Shown piece after piece: positions 33,201-61,200 of a stretch of DNA of 64,000 bases; position 1 is the first letter of the stretch, and the number at the start of each line of letters is the position of its first letter. The notes under the pieces are model-generated. The model was not told the origin of the DNA. It ran no database searches and worked only from the letters and a program-made list of their open reading frames with translations. A program made the translations under genes and the position numbers. Source of the DNA: Siphonodentalium dalli. Lineage: Eukaryota > Mollusca > Scaphopoda > Gadilida > Siphonodentaliidae. The stretch covers positions 130,125,605-130,189,604 of the forward strand of contig CP136064.1 of assembly GCA_032622095.1 (NCBI GenBank), given 5' to 3'.

Positions 33201-36200
33201 ATGTATATAAGGCTGTTATATCTTTATCTATGCTAATGATGTGTAGATCTATAATGCTGATAATGGCAAGGAAAAAGTATCAGTGGTGCCAGCATATGAA
33301 CCCTTCCCTAAATTTTGTAAGTACTTTTGAAGAAAACGAATTTACTTCAACTCTTAAAATGATATGAAACACTCTGGTAGGGTGATCAAATAGAAATGGA
33401 GAATAATCTTGCTCACAGTAGTAATGTTTACAAATATTATATCCAAATTGACAACAAACACCGTCATTCTTATATATTAATTAAATACAGTGACTCTCAA
33501 TGGCAAAATCGTTTTTGTTAGCTTATCGTAGATAGTTGCGTCCCGAATAGAGAAGTAAATATTTACAACTGCGCGTAGTTCTTACTATGTTTTCTACGGA
33601 GTGGTAAGGTCAATTTGTTTGAAATTTTCGGCGATGTTACTAGAATGCTATATTCCTCCAGTTGGCATAGTGCCTGAATACTAACTTACTAGTTTCACGC
33701 AACCGAATAAGTACATAATATGTCTTTAAAATATACCATTTGAAATTACTAGATGAATGGATCTAATTAATTGAGATTTGCATTGTTTCAAATAGGGGCA
33801 GAATAGGGCAGAGATAAGGGATTTAACTCTCACTAATCTGCCCTACCTGTATCTGTGCTGTTGAATTCAAGTTTGGTATTGGTATATTAATATATAGATT
33901 ACTAATGATTGCTAAGCTGACAGGTTGGGATGGGATATGGTGGCAATGTTAGAGACAATGGGAGGGAGTGTAGAGGGTCATTGTGGTCAAAATTTTCAAC
34001 AGTTGTAAAGTTTATGCCTGATACAACATTAGTTGTAAATTTGATTTTCACACCAAGCATAGGTTAGAATTGTTCTCATACATGTAGTTCGATTTTCCAA
34101 CAACAATGTTTTTAGACCAACAGTCAATATTTTCCTACTTCCTGTTAACTCTTTCAACCCGGCAGCCCGCCAAAGCGGGCACGACGTAATTTGCGTTCAT
34201 CCCGGCAGCCCGCTTTAGCGGGCGGAGCGCAATTGTCGGGAATAATACAATATTTCCAGAGATATACAAATGATTTTATTGGCTAGCGACTTATATATCC
34301 TTTGGGTGATATTCGGCATCAATACTAATTTAATTTACTAATAAATACTAATTTATCGGTGCGCACGAATACCTAGCATGAACGCGATTCAGAGAATTTC
34401 CGGTCCTATAAATATAGACAGCAGCTGTATGACGTCACGATTACTATTTTGGGTTTTCCTAAAAATCGATGACGCAATACTACCGACAGGTGTGCATGGT
34501 GTTTTGAGTCACATTTCGATTTTGGTTTATAGTTTATCACAAAAACTTACCGGTACAATTATTATTATTATGTTTATGAAATAAAGAAGATAATGTTGAC
34601 CTTTCTAACGATGTTTTATTTGTGGTATCCGTCTATAATGTCTCCTATTTTCGACGCAAAGTTACGGAAATCACCGTGCCGCACTACGGCGCGACTTTAA
34701 TAATATTAGCTGCACGTGCATATTATAAACATGAAATCGACATTCATAATCATTTTGGGAATCGAATCAGGACATTGGCAGTTGTTTTATTTGGAATGTT
34801 GCTCATAATTCCTCAGCATACTGACAAGTAAATCCCTGGGTCTAACATTGCTAGATGTGGGAGTATATGTTCGTTTCGGTCAAATAGCGTCTCTCTGACA
34901 AACTAACTGGGTTAGTACTGGTCTGCTCGTGCCTTTGATAATGCAATTATGTTCAATGAACCGATTGGTAAAACATTTGAAACCATGCACGGTGGCATCA
35001 CAACCAAGTGTATACACCACACTTGCAAAGAATGACACATTCATGTATGTATGTGGAAACATTGCTATGCGAATTTGATATTCCAGATACAGGTGATACA
35101 TGTATGCCCATATAGCATATGTTGGGATTCAATGTCCCTTCTCGGTTCTCACCTACACACACATGATATATTATTTAGATGTGACGCCCCCAATTGGTAT
35201 ATAACACATATTGAAGGTAATCTGTTAACGATCATAAAACATTCAGTTTGCCATAACCGACATCACTCTAAAGGTAGTGTTGAAGCAATATATCAGGGAC
35301 ACATCATTTTTTTTAGGCAAGCTGATAATCCAGGGTTCTGGGACATCTATATCTGTATATTCAGGGATGAAAGAGTTAAACTGTTGGACCAACATTCAAA
35401 ATTACCACATTTTTTTACTTTATGTGGGGGGGGGGGGGGGGGGGGGGGGTCGGGTTACCAATACATTTTAACTTTATGGGGATGTCAGGTCAGGGTGGAA
35501 ATTTCCAAAAGTTGGAGAGCTTGATGTACCAGTTGCAATATTCCAACCTAAGAGGGATGTGCAAAAGTCATTTTGTGAACTCAGGAATGTGGTCTGGTTG
35601 TCTTGTTTAAAAAAGAGTTGGGGGTTGAAGATTTGTCAGTGGTGTCCAATTAGAAATTTCAAGGTGCAGGCCTCTGCTCAACGAAGATCCTCCAGCTATG
35701 TCCCTGTTTAGAACTACTTGTCTTTAGTCATTTTGACAAGTACTGACTGTTGTAGTCTTCAGAGTCCAGGTCTTCTCAGTCTTTGCAGTCAGGTGAGCGA
35801 TTCCACAGTCATTGACTATCTTGTTTTTAACAATTTCAAGTTCAAATGTGAGAAACAAACCTCAGGGTTTTCTGTAATCGCAGAATACAATCAGTGGCCA
35901 CTGGACTACGCCCACCAGCAGTACTGTCATTCACACTCCGCCTAGTCTGGAGGAATCGCGTCAGTTCTTTTAGCAACATATTGCTTGGGGCAAAACAGCC
36001 GGTTGCCAACCACATTAGCTCCCATCCTTTCCTTTCACTCATGCTGAAACATTATGGTACTATGTTAAGATGCACACCTATATAGGCAATATAATTATAA
36101 CATAATGAACAATTTTGATTGATGATCTAAATTACCATCATTTTGAAAACTTTTTTTTCGGAACCTTTTAAAAAAAAAAAATAGGCAAACAAAGAAGAAT

Positions 36201-39200
36201 ACTTGCTGTTTGTGGTTTGCAAACTTCACAACAAGTAAAATTACTCAGTCCATTCACCAAATGATTTCCATTATTTGGTTTCCATCATTTTCAATATATT
36301 TTTGTTTCATATTGTTAAGGCAGAGGGGTAATATTTGTTGCCATGTTGCCATGGTAAATAAAATACAATAGATGTCTGAAAGAGCATCACTATGTGGTAA
36401 TTTACAGTTGCAGTGACAACAAACTATTAACAGACAGTAAACTGTGTCAGTTCCAGTCTCTCATATTGGCATCCTTTTTACTATAATTCAGCGTTATTGG
36501 TTCATATTTCTGTACATATCGATTATTTGTTACATTCTTTATAAATCTTCATAGAATGGACGAAATAAAGATATAATAATAAGATCTATAACACAATCTG
36601 AGATGTGATTATCCAGGGGAGAACATCACAAGAAAAAATACAAATATAAATCCTGAATTCTAGGTGAGAGTGGTTGCAAAACCAAGACAAGAATAATTAT
36701 CATAGTCTCTGTTATCTTTACCCAAATATATTTATTTGTTATTTGGGTTTGCAGGAGCAGAGGAGACAGGATGAAGATGCAATGGAAATTAGCTTTCAAA
36801 AATTTCTCCTAAAGTTACTTTCGTGTCTAAAAGGGGTATAGCATATATATTTTGTCCTCCATATTTCATCTACAGTATAGTGGGCCAGAATGGGATATGG
36901 ACTGACCTTGATTTGTTGTCCGCGAGCTGTTTCATTATCTGGCAGAAAACCTCATCCCTCAGAATTTCCTTTGAAATTAGAATTATTATGAAATTATTGA
37001 AATGTGAGCTCTTCGTTCGGCCATCAAAAAATTCATCACTAACATCCAACATATAGCTGATTGATTTTCATAATTCCTCATTAGTGGATATTTTGCACTA
37101 ATGTTTAATTTTAGCTGCTAAACCATGAGTATTCACTGCATAAAATTTAAAGAATATGTGAATGAATATTATAACCCTTTGTGTAGACCAGTCATCTTTG
37201 CATTCCAACTAAAATACATACTCATGCTTTATTTTGAGAAATGATTTCAGTATAGCCTTTAATAGATCATAGAAGTTATCACACAAGAGTATTCAAAATG
37301 TCTTATCAGCACCCTACTCACATTCTTCAGAGGAGGCTCAAATATCTGATCAGTCAGCTCGTTGGTTGTCCTATCTCTGCGGCACGGATGATCACCCATA
37401 TACTTCAGAATAGGTAAATATCATTAAGGAACTTAAGAGACACATAAATAGTCAAGTCTATACATGATGTGAATGTGTCATATTCCTGGAATGGAACTTC
37501 AACTAGAACTGTATATCAAGCCAAATCATGAATTCACAAATTGATGGAAGTCATTATTAAATTTCAAGACAAGGTCAAAAATTTCCGTTGGTATTGGTAA
37601 CATTTCCCCAAATAATGAGCATGTCATTGCAAGTTAGAACGGAAATGAAACTGAAAGTCTATTAAAATATTCAGATTTTGATGGATGTGATGTGGGCCAC
37701 ATTATTTTGTTGGCTGTTCTGTAGATTTTGGCACCCTTATGTCCATGATGTCATTTACCATACTCTATCCACCTGCATGTGAAAGAAGCAAACCACACTT
37801 TAAACAAGTGGCCATAGTGAACTAACTAGTCAGTGAAGCTGTTAGAAAGCGATACCTGAAATCTGGTATATTGGCTGGCTGTCTTAAAAGGCATAAGTTA
37901 TGCTTTCACAAAACCAGCTTTGGTGTGGGCATCTAAATTCAATGTACCCAGACCTTCATAACAGGTAAAATTTCCAAGAACAATTTACCTTAATTTCCAA
38001 GCACCATCTAACTAATATTGTACAGAATAAAAGGATATCCAAGAAGCTCATGCAGGCATCTTGACTGAGATCATCCTTGCCAACAAGTTTCTTTAGTAGC
38101 GGCTGTTTGATTGGATCCTTAGAATGGCTCCACAAATCAACTGGTTTTCGCTTACGAGCAGATTGCAATGTTTTAGTCAAGGTCATCTTTGGTGGTGGCC
38201 TGTCCAAAAAGAAAACATTCATAAGCTCAAATAACAGTGACAACATTGCACAAACCATGCTTTTGTATGCTATCTCTCATTAATATGAGTATGTTGCCTG
38301 GTGGAAGAAACTTCGGTCAAAGTTTCATACCATATGGATTCATTTTTACCATGAAGAAACACTCTGACTACCAAACTGATAACTGTAAACCTAGCCTATA
38401 TATTTACAATAAGCATGTTTGTATACCTGAAGTGGTCATATGAGTACTGCTCCAGTGTGTGGGCCTTTTCTCCGGTATCTACGTAACCATTGTCTATATG
38501 GTCTGTTGCATTCTCTATTTTAGTATGTTCTCCAGAATTCATGAATAAATTCTGAAAGAAAGACATTAAAGGCTTATTAAGGAATTTGTGATGAGTATAG
38601 GGTATAATTGATAATCCTTCATCAGTGACAAAAGCAAGCACAAGTTAGTGTTTCATTCACATAAATTTTATCAATTTGAGAACAAATAAATCAATAAATA
38701 GTATTAACCTTTTAACTGCTAAAAGATGGCATTATGTCAGTGTTGACCTGTTGACTTTATGCAGTCAAAGAATGTAAAGGAAATATGAAAACTCTACACA
38801 TATGAGTGCAGGTGGACATATTATTGGGAATTTTCCTGACACATCTAACAGTTTAAAATTTTGAAATAGTCATTCAAATACACTCAATGCTTGGAATTAA
38901 TAACGACAGATTGCGATTACTTTGAAATAGGTCTGCGCTCACTACTAACATATATTTACACTAATACATGCTTTCTCCTTTAAACATTGCAAAATAAAGA
39001 CATTAGTAAAAGTGAGTTCCTATAAGCTGGAACATCTCAAAATATTTAACTGAAATAGCAAGACATACAAGAATATCACTTGGAGGTTTTGTAATTGTTG
39101 GTAAGACATAGACACATTCTGCTGGAAAGTCGCCCTTCTGTTTCGACCTGATACACTCTCCATAGCACCAGCCAGAATTCATAACGGTCTCTCCTGTATG

Positions 39201-42200
39201 TTCAAGCTCTATGAGGTCACCCTTCTTGAAGTTGAGGAATGATGATCCTGGGCCTAGCAATGATAAGTTGTATGCATGATTATGAGAGAGCAAATATCAG
39301 AGTCTCACTTCAAGGTACGTATCACTAAAATATATCACATTTTTCAACAAGCCATTCAATGTTAACAATAGTCATATTTCTTAAATTGTCTAAATATTAA
39401 TTTAGTGATTATTGACTAAGCTGCAATACACAATACCAATAAATCCTTTTAATATTGACTGGAATTTAAGATATATTTATGCTATGTAAATGTTAATGTT
39501 TCCAGCAACCTAATTCCCAACGACCAGAATACATGTCTGGAGGGTTTGATGCTATATTTATCCCTAAATTCCAATGAACAGTTTCAATAAAAGTAATATT
39601 ACATAACATAGAGATATATAATGAGTCTCAATATAATTATGATCACTTTATTTAAAAAATCATTCATATGCTATGTACAATGAAAGAAGAGCTATTGGAA
39701 TTGTGATCATACTTTATGCAACAACTGTTATAAGTAATGCAAAACAACATGTATACAAATTTATTATATGCTCTATAGTGAAACAGCTAACAACGTATGA
39801 ATTGCTTGTCCCAGCAAGCTAATACCAAAATGTTATTTGCTCTTTGTATTAGCCTTCATTACATTGTTATCGATGACATCATTTACTTTTACAGTGGTGA
39901 TAGTCCATACTGATCTCTTATGAGAATGCACATTACAGAGCCATATCGAGCTTCATGTAGTGTTTTATCTATGAGCCAGAGACAAGTCAATCAGTTGACG
40001 ATCACCTGATTTGTTTTCGTCTGCATTTAATTTGGCAAAACAATCGCCTAATAGAAATAATTGTAATTGATATAGCAAAACCACATGTAATAAAAAGAAA
40101 ACTTACGGCTTTTGACTGAACAAAAGAATTGTCATTCGTGGGTGCAAGCAAATGTTGATTTTCCACGAGCGGCTTGTACCCACTCATGATAATTCTCTTA
40201 TTCAGTCAAAACCCATAGGTATCCTCTATATATCAGAATCTCATCAATAAAAATTATTTAAAAAAAAAACATAGATATATAAACAAACCTGGTGAGTTGT
40301 AATCTTGTAAAGCAATCACATATTTTGATCTTGTCTTGAGTCCTTCTAGGAAGGTAACAACTAGGTCTCTGATGTCTTCGGCATTCGGAGACGTGAAGGT
40401 GTACTCCTCACCCTTTACAGTTGCCAATGTAAAACTCTGGCCGTGGAGCTTGCCAGTCCTGTAGAGAAATAATTACTCTATCACAAGAGTCACACGATCA
40501 AGTGCATACAATTGTAATCAACATTACCAGATGCTCAGCACTGTGATAATCTGTGCCAATCAATTTTCAAACCAAATTCTTCATCAAGGTTTGGTTTTGG
40601 TTCATTTGTATTTATTGTCGTTTCAGTTGCTATAGGCTATAAATTACAAGTGGAGGAAAGACCTTTCAGAGGATTAATTTCATCAGATTACTGACCCCCA
40701 GAAATCTACTGTCCAAACTTGTTCTGATACATAACTAACATGTGTACAAATCCAAATCTGCGCTTATAGGGATTTAAACCAGTTTCGCCAATGCTGGATG
40801 GTTTATGTTGACCTAAAATTCCATCTACAAACTGAGCCACGAAGGACCCCTTATAGTGAATCAAGAATTTTTTTTAGACTTGTCATCTAGAAGAATCATT
40901 AGCACACACAATCTGACCATCATATGCATTCTGTGTCGAATTTGTTGGATCAAATATGATGTCTTTTTCAAATTCTGGTATAAGCTCGTCACAAATGACA
41001 CAACGCTAAGCATGTATTGTCTGCTTTGAATCATTGGGAGTTATTGTTACGAAGACTCAATCCAAAATTATGGCGATGGGAATGTTAAAAATATAATCAA
41101 AATTTTCACATATATTTCTAACTTTGGTCATAAAAAAGTGACATTTATCACATATAACACAAGTCAGATTTATATCCATATTCAAACCTTTATTGAATAT
41201 GTGATAACATTTCACGAGTCCGAAAACATGTCAATCAATCAAATCGGTGAGGTGTATGGGTGTACAAGGAACAGCTGTGACCATCGGCGGGGTGTATTGG
41301 TATACATGAAGATGTATGGTTATGAGTGGGGTGTATGGGTATATTTGGAGTGGCTATATTGCCATGGGTTGGTGTGTATCATACAATGTATATATGTGTT
41401 GGCAGTATGGTCATGGATTTGGTGTACGGATAAAGAGGGAGTGGCTTTATGGTCATGTGTGATTACATATGTGTACTGTGTGGGCATGGTTCAAGTATAT
41501 ATGCATACCTAGAGTAGGTGGGTGGTCATTGGGGGGGAAGTATAGGTATATAGCGAGTGTCCTTATGGTCATGGGTACATGTACTTGACACTAAACTGGA
41601 GCAAATTCGCGGGCGTTCCTGTGCTGCAGTTTTCATTTATAAAAACCTTCCTTATGACTCATATTGATTGTGAATAAATTCAACTGACATTTTGTGAATG
41701 TATTCAATGACACTTCCAACATTTTGTGAATCTTGACGTCACTGGAACCGAGTGTGTGTTCTTTGGAGGGTTGGCGACATAATAATAGATTCTGCAGGAT
41801 CTCCGATCTATCCTATTATTGCCTCAGATCCTGCTGTGACAACACATTCTGCCTTGTGTGTACAAAAACAGAGGTGTCTTCCTGTACATCACTCACATGC
41901 TCCTAAATACATTCGTACAATTTAACTGCTACAAATTAAGAAAGGACAATTCCATCAGAAAATTGCAAAACTGAAAAGGAGAATGCATTCAGTAAAGGAA
42001 GGCTTAAAGCACATGGTTGGGGTACGTTCTCACAGAATAAGACCTACCTGCTACTTGATACAGCTGTGATCTCAGGGAAAGACAATTCTAATAACACTTG
42101 TTCTTGGTCATCAACAACATACACACCAGTCCAGTTCACTGCAATAATCACATCATTCTTGGGTAAGCTTGGTCCAGCAAACTTGTATGCCTCATAAAAC

Positions 42201-45200
42201 CGAGAGAACAACAACGGCCACTTGTACTTGGCATATCCAACAATATCATTTTTCACAGTGACCTGTTTAATTTGTTCATGTGCAAAGTATGACTTGTTTT
42301 TCAGTTTTGTTGTGATAGTTGTCAGCCAATAGTTAACTCCCTTTGAGTTAAGGCTATTGTCCGGAATGTAAGAAGGAATTAAAGTCTGTAGTCTCTCCAT
42401 CACAATATTGAGTCCGTATTCGATGTAGTATTGTTGGGCAGATATCATTGCCATGTCATCATCCTGTGAAAATGAGATAAAACAATAGATTATTATAAAA
42501 ATATAACGGGATTATCACATGAACCATAAAACTGGCTCAGTTGAAAGACTATTATCGTTCACAATCATGGAACATCATACACTGTTTGAAACTTCGAGAT
42601 ACAGTTATTCCGATGCACCAATCTCTGAGTTGCAGTTATGAATAATGGACTACTGCTTGTGTGCTGAAGTAGGTTTATAGTAACTACGGACCATATAGCA
42701 CACAACGTGCACTTTTATGTCCGTAATAGTTACGGACGTAATAGCAGCGAGGAGTTTAATACAAACAACCAATATTACTTAATGTGAACGAAATAAATTT
42801 GTGATGAAGGGGGAGGGCAATAACTGCCAAAAGGCAACAAAGTTATTACCCATATTCATATACTATAAATATATATATAACAAGCAGTCGCAGACGGCGG
42901 TATCCCCCGCTGAATTGTGCAGTTGGGGAAGTGCATTCTCAATAATGTTTGCGTTCTCAGTATGTGCTAAACAAGAGGTGGGATTTTGTCAAAAAGCCTG
43001 GCTTGCGAACTAATTTTAACTACTGGTCATGGGAACGAATATACCAAAAATCTTTGAAATCCATTGACATTTGTGGAAATGAGCCCTGTGACGTCGTCCA
43101 TTTGCACACAAAAAAATAAACAAAGTCCAATAAGTCCGGTTAAAATATCAGGACGGACCTGGTTTGCGAACTCGTTCTAGATACTGGTCAAGTGAACTCA
43201 TATACCAAATATTTTTGAAATCTGTTGAGATTTGTGGAAATGAGCCCTGTGGCGTCGTCTATTTGCTATTTGGTAAATTCGACAAAAATAATAAACAAAG
43301 TCCAATAACTCCTGTAAAAATATCTGGCCGGACCTGGCTTGTGAACTCATTCTAGGTAATGGTCAGGTGAACTCATATACCAAAAATCTTTGAAATCCGT
43401 TGACATTTGTTCAAGTTATGACTCTTACAAAATCGGGACGGACAGACGGACGGACGGAACCCATTCCTATATCCGCCGCAAATTTCATTTGGCAGGAGAT
43501 AAAAAAAAATTTGCCATAACATCAGTCATCAAAATAAAAACGCCTATCACAGCCCTTTTTATTCAATGCGGTGGGGCCTGAGAACCAGATCCCTTTTGTA
43601 TTGCCTTATTAGGAATTAAAAACAAGGTTCTGATTGAGCTGGAGGTGCAATGTTTCGACACAAGCTGAAGCTGTAAAGTGTTACCACATGTAAATCTGAT
43701 TTTTCCCAAAAAACAACTTACTGGTACATCCTTTTGACTGTAAAAGTGACAATATGTGAGGTTTTATAATTAGAATTTAGACAGTATTGTCTTTGCTGGA
43801 ATAATTAGTGTATATGTACTTATCTAGATATCTCTTGAATTTGTGGGGCACTGTTTCAGAAAGAGAGGGGTCCATATTACCTCATTGAGTGCATGATCAT
43901 TTCTCTCTTTTTGTAGAAATAGACCAATTTTGACGAGATTGCAAAGCTGATATGGATTTACCTTATCACATCTGTATTCACCAAATTTGATTCCTCGCAC
44001 CACCTGCTGGTATATCAGATTTGTTGCAGTAGAATCATCACCAGCTTCATGCCACGGAGCAAATATTTCCTTACGGAAGAATAATCTCCAGGGTGCGTTC
44101 CTTTCCTGGGATCCCTGTTCCTTTGCATACTGTTCACACTGAGATATGGCATCCATGACATGATCTCCACCGCTACCTAGAGACGACACCTGCATATATA
44201 TCAGTCACAAATTATATTAACATTACAATGAAGGGACCAACCTAGGGTAGAAACACGTGAGATATCATCTAAACTGAAAATTGCCAGTAGCCAAAATGTA
44301 TCAATTAGGAATCATCTCCATACTAATATCGAGGGAAATCATAGAGATCGCCAAATGACATGACGTATTTTGGAAAAGTTTTGGAATAATTTAGAACTAT
44401 AGGGATTATTTTGGTAATATATTGGGATATCACTTTATTTTTTGACAATAGTATTGGCAAATTGTTGATATATTAATTTTTATTCTTCATCGGGAAGTGA
44501 CATTCATCATTAAAATACTGATTTGTCACAATTTATTATTTTTTTAAAACAATTTTCAATGTCTATTGCTTTCAACTAGATGCTTTCATACAATTATTTT
44601 TGGTATCTACAAGCTCATGTTATGGCCGCACATATATTTGGTTATATGTTTGTCAAGAAGAATTTCACCATGGAACCCTGTCAACATAGCTGTATCTTCC
44701 ACAAGAAAAAAATATTAATTATCATGCACATTGTTTATGTTATTGTGTCTTATTGAGTTTTATAAGGATATGTGGGAAATTTTGGACACCAACCAATGGC
44801 AATAGCTCAAACTTGACATTGTCAAGTTGAGCTAATAATTCACCAAGTGAATAGGCAGGGTTTACGTTAGGGATCAAATGTTGGGGCCCCTTTTCTTTTT
44901 GCTAGGGGAACGAGAGGCCGATCACAATCGGCAGATGTTTAACACATACCTTGGCGATAGCGATTAGCTATAACTGATAATTGGTCAAAGATATGATCAC
45001 AGTAATCCATATATCAGTACCCAACTTAAAATAAAAAGCTCAAATAATTTGTCTTAAGAAGCGGTCAAAGTATTTGGGGTGGGGGAGGAGTCATTTTATA
45101 ACTCATAACTCTCAAACTCGATCTGTATTTTGGGCTGAGAAACTCGCATACCAAATTTGGTTCCGATCAGATAAAAATTGTTTGAGTTATGACAGCATCA

Positions 45201-47351
45201 GTGTTCGCGCTGTCGGTAGCCAAATTAGCCAATGGCTAATCTTTTTCGAATTTGGCTAATAAAAATTTCATTTGGCTAAACTTTTGGCTAAACTTTTTTT
45301 TACCACAAATGGAGACGGAAAGCATGGTGTCAAAAAGCTAATTAATAAAAGCGCTCAATAGATCGACATTCAGGACAAAGTTAGGTGACGAAAGTATTTC
45401 GTTATTTTCGTACTTATGAAATATCGTTCCGCTGTTGTTTTAACTGACTGACTTTTTCAGACAAAGAAAGACATTGCCTTCTATACCAAAGATTGAGTGT
45501 CCTCTAACGGACATACAAAATGATGATAGTAGATGAGAGGAAGTTACTGAACAGACAAACGAACCTGACGAAGCACTACTGAATACGAAGAGACCGAAAG
45601 ACATTAGTTTACTGACACCTAAAAGACTTCTGATGTTCAGACATTGGGCTTTCCGTTAAGATCCTAACCAGTCTAATCGTCAAAATTTATAAGCTGTATA
45701 CTGGTTATGTAATTGATTAAGCCGTCTGTAAGATCAAATACCTAAATGCTTTGTTCGTTATAAAAGAGCGGTTCTTAACTCAATGGTTACGTAATGGGTG
45801 TTTTTTATGTTGTATTAATTATGTTTTCATTCTGAGTATAACAAATAAAGTTTAAAACAAATATTTTAGTCATTAATTGTGAACCGACCAGAAAACGATG
45901 ATTTAATTTGGCCAAAGTTTTTTTTTAATTTGGCCAAAAAACATTTGCCTAAAGTTTTTTTCATTTTGGCTAACAAAATTTTCATTTGGCTAAACTTTTG
46001 GCTAAAGTTTTTTTTCGGTCCAGCGCGAACACTGGACAGCATGCATGAATTCTAAGTCGAAATAACTCTGTAAAAAAAACATGGATCAAACCCATATTCG
46101 AACTCGATCTGTATTTTGGGCTGAGAAACATATATACAAAATTTGGTTCTGATCAAATAGAAAATGTTTGAGTTATCACATAATGTGTAAAGTGTCTATG
46201 GATGGACAGACAGACAGATAGATGGATGGACGGACGGACGAACGAACGACGAGTGGTCAATCCGGATGTTGACACTATGTGTACCAAACTATGGTACGGG
46301 TACACATAAAAAGTTTTATCTCATGCAGAGTACAAGAAAAATGTATCAAACCTGGTGTGCCCCTTTAATATTTGTAATCAATTGAAATCAATGTCGAAAA
46401 AGTTTTCCATTAATATATAAATGAAACAAACTAGACCTACAGTTCTAAATGTGTAATATGAACAATTATTTTGTTCTCATAGACTGATACAGAGCTCTCA
46501 AGTTTTTAAAAATTTGAAAACCAAAGTTGTCTTCCCATGCAACCAACAAAATTCCAACGAATCTACTAAACACAATCACATTATTAACCTCCAATAGTAA
46601 TGCTATTAAACAATAGAACCAGATTATGCCTTTAAGATAAAGATTTAAATAACCATGCATATAAAATATAATAGTACAGACATTCCATCTATGATATCTC
46701 ATCATATGGCCAACACAGCTCCCTGCAGTTAATTAACTCAATGCCAGAGTCATGTGACTGGATACTGTCTCTGTGAGAAGAGAACTTCATGGCATTGTAA
46801 ACCTGATTTATTAGATTCTATCTGGACAGTACAAACTGTGTATCTTTGATATATTTTAGATGAAAACTTCCATAGGGTTCATTGTTAAAGTGTCATGTTA
46901 CCCCCTAAAAATCAACCCGAGCGTGACACCTTGAACAAGTTATGAACTAGGTGTCATAGCAATGGTCCACAGTCCACACCAAATATCACTCCCAACACCA
47001 AATTGTCATTTTTAAATAATTAATACAGTTAATTAAAATAATCAAAGGGCCATAACTCCATTAAAAAATATCCGGATCAAACCCATATTCGAACTCGATC
47101 TGTATTTTGGGCTGAGAAACTCGCATACCAAATTTGGTTCCGATCAAATAAAAATTGTTTGAGTTATGACAGCATGCATGAATTCGAAGTCGAAAAAGGG
47201 CCATAACTCCGTAAAAAAAACTCGGATCAAACCCATATTCGAACTCGATCTGTATTTTGGTCTGAGAAACTTGTATACAACATTTGGTTCCGATCGGATA
47301 GTAAATATTTGAGTTATCGCACCATGGTAAAGTGTCTACGGACAGACAGAC

Positions 47352-47383
<32 letters not shown>

Positions 47384-49208
47384 GGATGGATGACGAGTGG
47401 TCAATCCGGACGTCGACACTATGTTTACCATACTATGGTATGGGTAAACATAAAAACACAATTGCCATCACCGCCAACGTTGACAAGGAATTAAGATACA
47501 CCAACACTTACAGTATACATGTAACTGGCTTCTAGTAAGTTATCTACTCTGTTTATGTCATAGTTCAAATGATGTGCCCAATGGACTATATAGCCAATGT
47601 GCATACAAACAGATAAACGATGGCAATCAGCGGCGACTGCAGATGATTTCACATGCTTTCCGCATTCCTTAACTCTTGAGCTCCAAGTACGGTACAGAGA
47701 TCATGACAAAACATTCTGGGAAGGGCGTTATCCTCGTTTAGGCTCATTTATAGTATTTTGGGACCAAAAAACATGCACTGCATGAGCTTAAAGCGGCTCT
47801 ATATGGTAGTAAAGAAAGAGCAAGAAAGATTTTGGGAAAAACCTTAAATCCTATAGATATTAAATTACAATCTGATCACTTTCAATTTATATGCTATAGA
47901 TAAGTGCATTTTATATTCAATAAGCTCATGTGATGATGGTAACATATGTGTATGTGATTTAAAATCTAAATATATTCACACCTTGTCATAGAGTGCAATG
48001 TAGAGTGAGAAGCCGAACTGGTCTTTGAGACCTATCTTTTCTGAGAGTTGCTGACATAACTCCCTCGCTGTGGTGGCAGAATCGGCCAGCAACGTCTTTG
48101 TGTTGCCATCCATGAAAGTTATCGGAAGCATGATAGGTTTCTTTGATTTGGTCGCCTGGAAAATAAAAAAACAACAAATGTATGATTCCCTTAGATATGA
48201 CACTATTAAATGTCACCTAATGGTGTCTAGCATGTAATATGAATTGTCTGCGGCAACTAAAATGGGTTGCCCTGCCCCATATGATTATCCACTATAAAAC
48301 ATCCATATTGTGAATCACAGCTACAGTGAGCTCATTGAAGTGTTGTGGTTGGTACCCACAATTTAGTCTATAGGAACCTTTTTATAAGTTTACATTTATG
48401 TTCAATATTGGTCGAGGAGACTGTCATTTCAGCAGAAAATGGATAATGTTTGGGCTGAAAACAATATTTTCCTAAAAAAGTCAAATATATATCTCCTAGA
48501 AGTATCTTGCCCACTGAACTATATGGTATATTATCCCAAGTAGGAGGGGTTAACTCTCCGAGTTGAAAAAAATGTACGAAATTCTATGGTACATATCTTC
48601 TGTCATGTTCATGACCCGTGTAATCACGTGATTTCTGACACGTAGTGAAAGAATCGCCATATTTTTTATCCCCAGTAGGACATTCCTCGTGAGCGGGGTG
48701 GGTGCGAAACCCTGGGAGGGAGCTCAGCGTTCAGTGGGCAAGATACTTCTAGGAGATATATATTTAACTTTTTTAGGAAAATATTGTATCTCCGTCAAAG
48801 GTATCTTGCCCACTGAACTATATGGTAAAGCATAGAATTTTCTAACAGGTGGAGGCCACGAGGAAACAAAAACACCGCTATGCATCTGAATCAAAGAACT
48901 GGATTGACCTGATAACCTACAATATATACATACACATGCACAGACATATAGATATATATGTATATACATATATATATATATATATATACACACATGCACA
49001 ATAGGACCATAAGCCAATGTAATATTCCATCCTAAACTAATACCTGTCAGCACTCTCAAACGAACAAAAAGTGGCCACTTAAGAGTTTAAGACCCCTGCA
49101 AGTAAAGTAAATAGCTTCAGAAGACCTGGAGATGGATACGACATTCGCATCGGAACTTAGGGCTAATAATGTATCAGCCGAGTACTTGCCGGGAAAGGTA
49201 CGGGTAAC

Positions 49209-58200: not shown

Positions 58201-61200
58201 TTTTTTCAGAGTAAGGGAGACAATTTTCTTCATGTTTCTTTTACTGAGACTGGAATGTTTAATCTGGTTAACAGCCTGCTGCGTTTCCTGGAACATATTG
58301 TGATGATTTCAGAGTGACATAATCACAAAGCTTTATTGAAAATGGCTTTTCTATGACATTTGTAAAAAAAATTTGAAGGATAGATTGAATTCTTCCCAGT
58401 AAGATAAACTGTGTTGAGTCAACTGTCTCTGGGTTATTGTGTCTATCCATATTGAATCCGGGCCAAATGAAGGAATAAATATTCACATATATTTGTAGTT
58501 TAGGCATTCTTAACTCATTACCACTCTGACCGCAGCGGACTACAACCCCCAGGTTACTTTGACGTTGTGACGTTAAAAACTCAGCGCACCTTGCCACGGC
58601 GACGTAATTTACGTCCCATTTCCTCAGAGATTTTGATGTTTTAGTCGGCTTTAGCATGTTTTTACCTTAGTTCTGTGATGGCTGTCATTCTAATTTCTAA
58701 ATTCTAGAAATGGCCTTTCGTGGTTTCGCTATTTAGTATTTGTTCAGGATTTGTTGTTTCAAACTACCAATTGAATAGACTGTGCCACCTTTCCATAATG
58801 TCACAATTCCAAGTTTAAATGTTAAAATGTTGCAACAGTTATCAAAAGCAATCATCGTTTTTATTATTTTTTAACAAATGTACTTTCGAGCAAGGTAAGG
58901 TGTGAATGGAATAAAATGTTCTGATTGGATAGAATATACTTCAACCTTCAAAATCAAAACAATCATGACTATTAATGGAGAAAGCCACGAAAATTTGGTT
59001 TTTACTTTTATTAAATAAAAAGGTGTCAAAAGGTGCTTCTGAGGAAATGACATAAGGTGACAAAAGGTGCCTCTGAGGAAATGACGTAAGGTGACAAAAT
59101 GTGCTTCTGAGGAAATGTTGTAAGGTGTCAAAAGGTGCTTCTGAGTGATAATGAGTTAATTGGTACAAAGAACGTGTTAATAGTTTTGAGCAATAATAGT
59201 TGAATTCTATATTCTTAAAAATATTAAATGAATTTATATAGGCTCATTCTGATATGGCTAATCGCCAATGCACATCAGGCAGATATACTAAATTGACACC
59301 ATAATACCAATTTTCAGCACTATAATAAGCACTTAATTACATGAATATGTTTATATTATTACCATAGCCTCTCCCATTAGCTGAGCCTCTTGAAGTTCTT
59401 TCTTTCCAAACTTTCTTCCAAGTGTTGAATAGATTTTGTTCATGACTGGTGTGTTATCCTGGTAAAATAAAGCAAAAGCACTAATCAGATGATCTTATAT
59501 TTTTCCAGTGATTCCCCCAGCACCTATTAAAAATTCTAATCAATTCATAATATTCACCTTTTCCTGAATAATTCTGCTGATCTCAATAAATAATAACTAA
59601 GCAGTACATATTCATCATTGATTGGCTGAGCTGATTTCTGTGTTATTTGGTAACAGCTAATGTAGATATTAAGGCTTCATAATTAAAATATGTGAAGATA
59701 TATCTCATTATTTTCAAATCTTAAAATTAAACCTAACATTAAATCTCTTGCTTTTGCAGCATTCCTATGATCATCATAGGTCGATAAATAGCTCACTTGG
59801 TGTCCATCAGAAATACTTTAAGAAGTCATAAGATATTATCAATCTTGTTCAATGTTTTGCACAGAAGTTAGAATGCTACTTATTTTTACTGTATAACAAA
59901 AATATCTAACAGAGAACAACTGTTGGTTGTCACATGTGCTGGACGCGAAAGGCGATGATACCTATGACTTTTTCAGGCATGTATAGGCAGACCCCTTATA
60001 AGTATTTCATGTATCAGCCCATTTTGTTATAAGGATCTTGTTAAAAGGAAGTGATTACTGGGTTCAGTTTAATACTCATGATGCTGCTGATATTCTGCTG
60101 TTATATTTGGACAGATGACGTAAATGACATCACCTTCTTCAAAAGGGAAGATAGTCTGTACTGGTCTGTTAGGTGTGAGCATTTTAGTATATTGCTGTGA
60201 TGTAGAGTGTCACTTGTCACTAAGGGACTAGTCAAGTCAATATTTCTGAGGTAACAATGATAGTTGCTAGATTTATGTGCTCACCCGATCAGTTGCAGCA
60301 GTAACATATCTCGGCTCTGGAAGATCTCCCATGAATCTGAGAATAATAATCCATACAGCAAGGGCAGCCTGTCATAAAATAGAAACATATTGTTCAGCGA
60401 ATAATTTTCACACAGAAAGGCAGCCTGTCATAAAATATAAACATATTGTTCAGCAAATAATGTTCACAAAGAAAAGTGAGCCTGTCATAAAATAGAAACA
60501 TATTGTTCAGAGTATAATGTTCACACAGAAAGAGCAGTCTGTCATGAATTAGAAACACATTGTTCAGAGAATAATGGTCCACACAGAAATAGCAGCAGTT
60601 AAAAAATAGAAACACATTTAGGTTATTAAATAAATGCATATAAATAATAATAAATAAAAACATTACAGGCAAGTTTTATTTGTTTTTGGTCTTATTCATT
60701 ATATATTGTATACATTGTTCATTCTGCTTTATTTATACAAAATACATTACAAATAATCTCAATTTAAACTTCAGAATGCTTAGGTCATGGATGACCACCA
60801 TGTATAATTTCAGAATCTGATCAGACAGAAACATTTGCATTAGATCCATATCCAGATAGGCACAAATGCTTAGTTATATATTATCTTTCTATTGCATTTA
60901 TGAAGGAGGCTGGCAGCCATTTCTTAATAGAAATTTAACTGATAGAAATGTGACTGAACTGTGGATGTGCTGCATTGCAAGTGTTTTAAGCCTTTGGAAA
61001 TTTAATACTCACAGATGAGCAGTTACACAATTTCTATTTATTTGTTTGTAAGGATGATCAGCTAATAAATTCATCAAACACCCATAAGCTGTTGAAATTA
61101 TTAGCTGAACATTCCAACAAATGAATCCCTCTGATTGCCGTCTACTTATAGTATCTGAACATCGCTATAAATGAAGAAGGGACCTTTATCATGTATACCT

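Follow-up and report, generated by a model that had tools for sequence, protein, structure and literature searches.

An AT-AC intron with U12-type signals in the MyTH4-2 region of a Siphonodentalium dalli myosin VII gene

The myosin VII gene and its AT-AC junction

The window (the whole 64,000-nt stretch of S. dalli DNA analysed here) carries a gene that is identified as myosin VII, with a MyTH4-FERM-SH3-MyTH4-FERM tail behind the motor, because its tail exons match Myo7a and MYO7A and because, further upstream, the same strand carries an exon of a motor (C4:130241844). The tail exons gave E values of 1e-212 against mouse Myo7a (3pvl_A) and 7.6e-66 against human MYO7A (5mv9_A), the last part of the second FERM domain lying outside the aligned part. 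The following features of the window are referred to below, each with the evidence on which it is placed.

35845..48158, minus strand: myosin VII tail stretch with six other introns called (class-penalty spliced alignment; first exon start by eye)
38039..38199, minus strand: upstream exon, myosin VII MyTH4-2 region, ending ...ATGAGCTTCTTGG (translation, alignment to 5mv9_A; start by eye from the AG at 38201-38200)
37414..38038, minus strand: AT-AC intron, almost certainly U12-type, 625 nt, phase 1 (sequence, pair scoring, spliced alignment)
38029..38038, minus strand: 5' splice site ATATCCTTTT (sequence; predicted pairing with the genome's own U11 and U6atac)
37423..37431, minus strand: branch-site motif TTCCTTAAT, its last A 10 nt before the intron end (sequence; predicted pairing with the genome's own U12)
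37414..37415, minus strand: AC acceptor (sequence)
37322..37413, minus strand: downstream exon, CT ATT CTG AAG TAT ATG GGT ... (translation, alignment to 5mv9_A, spliced alignment)
60285..60368, minus strand: MyTH4-1 exon of the same gene, with no intron at the homologous site (translation; exon ends by eye)

Read as the reverse complement, the 625-nt intron starts with ATATCCTTTT and ends with TTCCTTAATGATATTTAC (in longer reads, ATATCCTTTTATTC and AAGTTCCTTAATGATATTTAC), and the last A of TTCCTTAA lies 10 nt before its last base. The upstream exon ends with ...AGC TTC TTG G and the downstream exon begins with CT, so that the intron is in phase 1 and the junction G|CT yields the joined codon GCT (Ala); the joined flanks read SFLAILKYMGD. 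The branch motif TTCCTTAAT differs from TCCTTAAC at one position, where the last C is replaced by T. Position +5 of the intron is C, and its AC acceptor sits at the junction set by the protein, as found by sequence, pair scoring and spliced alignment. The donor ATATCCTTTT is an exact match, at positions +1 to +8, to the consensus ATATCCTT given in a portion of PMC2831892.

Across the junction, the joined protein shows no gap in its alignment to human MYO7A (5mv9_A, E 1.9e-37) or to the MYO7B chains shown. Splice pairs that were in frame and free of stops were scored over a broad interval, combining GT, GC and AT donors with AG and AC acceptors (GC-AC left out). Among the 73 pairs, AT-AC at 38038/37414 ranked highest with a score of 265, followed by a GT-AC pair (247), while the best GT-AG pair reached 237. 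A spliced protein-to-DNA alignment with class penalties placed the junction at 38038/37414, and so did an equal-cost alignment in which all end dinucleotides were treated alike. In the equal-cost run, the two adjacent junctions were also displaced by 1 to 4 nt and one spurious intron appeared; on five paralogous stretches it gave fragmented fits in 20 of 20 cases; its support is thus confined to the window junction. The original prediction of an AT-AC intron at this place in the MyTH4-2 region, giving SFLAILKYMG in agreement with the human protein, is borne out by sequence, frame, the gapless protein match and the pair scores.

Under class penalties, the other six introns of the tail, starting at 47981, 43961, 42047, 40288, 37321 and 36906, are all GT-AG; these calls cover two aligned pieces, with the gap from about 39072 to 38199 left out.

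How often such signals would meet by chance depends on the anchor. For a single junction whose place the protein sets, the joint first-order expectation for the donor 8-mer, the branch motif (at 8 offsets) and AC is 4.5e-10. When the exon anchor is dropped, 0.28 donor-acceptor pairs are expected in the 64 kb on both strands, and the one observed is 38038/37414. Three other ATATCCTT or GTATCCTT sites occur on the minus strand (52948, 51945 and 44771), at no exon end recognised by eye. By these estimates, the U12 signals alone would not decide the matter, but at an exon junction they do.

The minor spliceosome and competing readings of the junction

Rfam searches of the same genome (2.23 Gb in 9 contigs, with the gathering score as cut-off) found U12 at two places, U11 at four, U6atac at four and U4atac at three. 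The sequence GAGTAAGGAAA is present in both U12 copies and TAAAAGGGCC in all four U11 copies; AAAAAAGGAGAG is present in three of the four U6atac copies, the fourth, lower-scoring one being different. Two exon matches were also obtained for the family of PDCD7, a minor-spliceosome protein. Judging by these four minor-class snRNAs and the PDCD7-family matches, the genome encodes a minor spliceosome. With the signals of the window intron, the predicted duplex energies are -8.7 kcal/mol for U11, -7.8 kcal/mol for U6atac and -7.4 kcal/mol for U12 and the branch motif. The claim that the 5' site, a branch motif about 10 nt upstream of the end and the AC end all fit the minor spliceosome therefore stands, on the strength of the snRNA genes and the predicted pairing. 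As a positive control for AT-AC introns, the PHB2 gene was sought with Band_7, which gave six matches, one of them PHB2-like by eye, with no AT-AC intron recognised within about 3 kb.

The four U11 copies are nearly identical and lie within about 8 kb of each other, at C5:33341765-33350092.

The junction might be read in other ways. The real intron could have GT-AG ends and be removed by the major spliceosome, pairing 37403 with a donor either at 37988 or at 38012; the frame would be kept, with 13 extra residues in the first case and five in the second. The donor at 37988 (AAG|GTAAAT) has a predicted U1 duplex of -6.8 kcal/mol, and the frame of 37988/37403 stays open. Against this, both GT-AG pairs interrupt a segment that is gapless against human MYO7A and MYO7B, score 28-29 below AT-AC and leave the U12 signals unexplained; moreover, in a second, myosin-VII-like gene of this genome (gene B, described below), read-through past the donor meets a stop after SDILLT. 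A GT-AG intron is, on balance, very improbable here. The earlier statement that the conserved sequence is kept by no GT-AG pair is true of a gapless match; these two pairs do keep the frame, with their extra residues. Even less probable is an intron with AT-AC ends that would be spliced by the major spliceosome, as are the AT-AC U2-type introns of sodium channel genes. The window donor is predicted to pair with U1 at only -1.5 kcal/mol, against the value given above for U11, and a U12 branch motif is present. AT-AC U2-type introns do exist and have G at +5, according to the relevant part of PMC2831892, whereas the window intron has C.

The sequence from 38038 to 37414 on the minus strand is thus, with little room for doubt, a U12-type AT-AC intron in the second MyTH4 domain of the myosin VII gene, because three signals stand at a junction set by the protein, minor-class snRNA genes are present, the predicted pairing agrees and the arrangement is repeated in the paralogous gene B. 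In such an intron, U11 would bind ATATCCTTTT and U12 would bind TTCCTTAAT, U6atac would then displace U11 from the 5' site, and joining of G to CT by the minor spliceosome would restore the alanine codon.

A separate feature of this region is that the fair U2-type donor at 37988 lies 50 nt inside the intron and the AG at 37403 lies 11 nt past its end; together they form a possible nested or alternative site.

The homologous site in other MyTH4 domains of the genome

A search of the same genome for MyTH4 domains gave 24 matches, weak ones included, and the site homologous to the junction was examined in nine domains. The count leaves out a copy at C9:148.29, the first MyTH4 domain of gene B, two matches below cut-off and the four weakest matches; the remaining matches are further exons of domains already counted. 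The nine domains are as follows.

Domain 1, window gene MyTH4-2, 38038..37414, minus strand: AT-AC, phase 1
Domain 2, gene B, myosin-VII-like, C4:169258550-169257552: AT-AC, same codon and phase
Domain 3, gene with MyTH4 then RhoGAP on the same strand, C7:161665229-161667752: probable AT-AC, same codon and phase
Domain 4, in a MYO15-like gene that has two MyTH4 domains, C5:154022497-154020574: GT-AG, exactly the same codon and phase
Domain 5, the other MyTH4 domain of the MYO15-like gene, C5:154.11 Mb: GT-AG, phase 0, 2 nt downstream (4 of 4 references)
Domain 6, C6:77.22 Mb: GT-AG, phase 0, 1 nt upstream (by eye)
Domain 7, C6:9.93 Mb: GT-AG, phase 0, 1 nt upstream (donor in 3 of 4 and acceptor in 2 of 4 class-penalty runs)
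Domain 8, window gene MyTH4-1, 60285..60368, minus strand: no intron at the site
Domain 9, C6:77.25 Mb: no intron at the site

The site is accordingly occupied by a U12 AT-AC intron in two domains (firm) and probably in one more, by a U2-type intron at the identical position in one and within -1 to +2 nt in three, and by no intron in the remaining two of the nine.

The two MyTH4 domains of gene B are on one strand and separated by about 55 kb, and over one exon the gene is 42% identical to the window protein. Its junction reads GTG|ATATCCTTTT ... TTCCTTGACAATTTCTTCAC|CTG. The AT-AC pair was the best of 51 with both references tried: with the window gene (gene A) as reference, AT-AC scored 86, GT-AC 80 and GT-AG 61, and with human MYO7A the scores were 77, 68 and 54, respectively. 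In the class-penalty alignment, AT-AC was taken with three of the four references, the Dictyostelium reference missing the junction. The two introns have their first 10 nt in common, and no blastn match with E < 0.9 was found between them. No motor exon was listed near gene B among the candidates scored (65 of 513), and the upstream exon of its first MyTH4 domain was not found in the stretch read. On this evidence, gene B is a firm second case of the window gene's AT-AC intron, matching it in codon and phase.

The gene on C7 is described as ARHGAP39/Vilse-like, from its MyTH4 and RhoGAP domains on one strand; we take this pair to be the mark of ARHGAP39/Vilse, which presumably has WW domains as well. 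In the AT-AC reading its junction is AAAC|ATATCCTTTG ... ATCCTTAACTGTATCAC|TG, with the donor ATATCCTTTG, ATCCTTAAC with one mismatch, and AC. A GC-AG pair (donor TTT|GCAAAT) outscored AT-AC by 47 to 41 when the two MYO7 proteins served as reference and by 45 to 40 when the Dictyostelium one did, and the class-penalty alignment took GC-AG with all four references. Thus the protein alone slightly prefers GC-AG, but the signals favour AT-AC at the same codon and phase, which we regard as probable. The protein of the AT-AC version gave weak MyTH4 matches in the PDB (best E 1.4e-4) and no NCBIfam match.

The label "MYO15-like" for the C5 gene rests on motor exons and two MyTH4 domains on one strand; a scan downstream of the gene found no family. 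At 154.02 Mb its junction is GTCG|GTATGT ... TTCCAG|CT, taken with 4 of 4 references under class penalties. The gene at C6:9.93 Mb comes with a PH match on its upstream side and, on the downstream side, a FERM match that falls below cut-off; its protein has weak matches that include myosin X (E 0.0052).

The copy on C9 (148290449-148290785) consists of the MyTH4 exons of the C6:77.22 gene without introns and with a broken frame, and looks like a processed pseudogene.

Age of the intron and relation to known minor introns

The window gene and gene B have codon, phase and subtype in common while the interiors of their introns give no blastn match at E < 0.9, and therefore the AT-AC intron is best explained, with moderate confidence, as predating the split of these two myosin-VII-like genes. 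If the AT-AC reading of the C7 gene is right, the intron would also be older than the split of MyTH4 between myosins and RhoGAP. Taking the four genes together, it is probably older than the separation of the window gene, gene B, the C7 gene and the MYO15-like gene. A MyTH4 domain would already have carried the intron when the two myosin-VII-like genes, and probably also the ARHGAP39-like gene, parted, and the intron may have turned into GT-AG at the same spot in the MYO15-like gene, both steps being less certain. The GT-AG intron at C5:154.02 is thus a possible candidate for U12-to-U2 conversion. Such conversion is described in parts of PMC2831892 and PMC7367187, and a passage of the former reports it to be less common in the AT-AC subtype (5 of 79 single-subtype clusters with conversion).

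The other genes could also have gained their introns at this site independently, in which case the window intron would say little on age. The site is often interrupted, GT-AG introns lying within -1 to +2 nt of it in three further MyTH4 domains, and two of the nine domains have no intron there at all. U12-type AT-AC introns are rare, however, and codon, phase 1 and subtype agree in two firm cases and a probable third; no pathway is known by which AT-AC introns would arrive at one codon again and again, which counts against independent gain. We therefore consider independent gains unlikely. The fuller account, in which the ancestral MyTH4 domain already carried an AT-AC U12-type intron before its dispersal to genes of the myosin VII, RhoGAP and myosin XV types, AT-AC being kept in the first two and replaced in the third by a U2-type GT-AG intron at the same codon and phase, is offered tentatively, its chances falling a little short of even. 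If true, both states of the conversion would be present at homologous sites in one present-day genome. Since minor introns are scarce and slow to change, one that occurs in genes with nothing but a domain in common could serve to date the duplication of that domain and to test U12-to-U2 conversion within a single genome. Annotation pipelines that accept only GT-AG would misread this exon junction.

Known U12-type AT-AC introns, such as those of PHB2, STX6, KCMF1 and the T-type calcium channel genes in the part of PMC2831892 concerned, have the same ATATCCTT donor, TCCTTAAC-type branch and AC acceptor, and the window intron differs from them in lying in a myosin VII MyTH4 domain. Its phase 1 is within the usual bias of minor introns away from phase 0, which a section of PMC10639083 describes; molluscs are reported there to be relatively rich in minor introns. 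Gene duplication in the families of voltage-gated sodium and calcium channels (PMC2831892, in part) likewise left minor introns in place, whereas in the present case the intron seems to be shared beyond the myosins, with a RhoGAP gene, through one common domain. Mouse Myo10 is also a myosin gene with a minor intron according to an excerpt of PMC6558932, a likeness at the level of the host gene.

Literature on the window intron itself is sparse. Searches for MYO7A with minor intron and U12 found nothing in the open-licence literature, supplements being outside the search, and MyTH4 and U12 were mentioned together only in a single-cell methods paper. This absence is weak evidence of novelty, and counterparts in vertebrates may already be on record in minor-intron databases. 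Myo10 presumably has a MyTH4-FERM tail. Splice variants of human MYO7A named at c.5327, if confirmed, would put a human intron at the same codon, on the assumption that residue 88 of 5mv9 is MYO7A residue 1776, counted from a length of 2215. A literature search for a human intron at MYO7A c.5327 gave no confirmation. Neither PMC2831892 nor PMC7367187 uses the words myosin, MYO or ARHGAP in its main text. New in the present sequence analysis are the probable case in the C7 gene and the firm one in gene B, a second, myosin-VII-like gene whose AT-AC intron agrees in codon and phase with that of the window gene.
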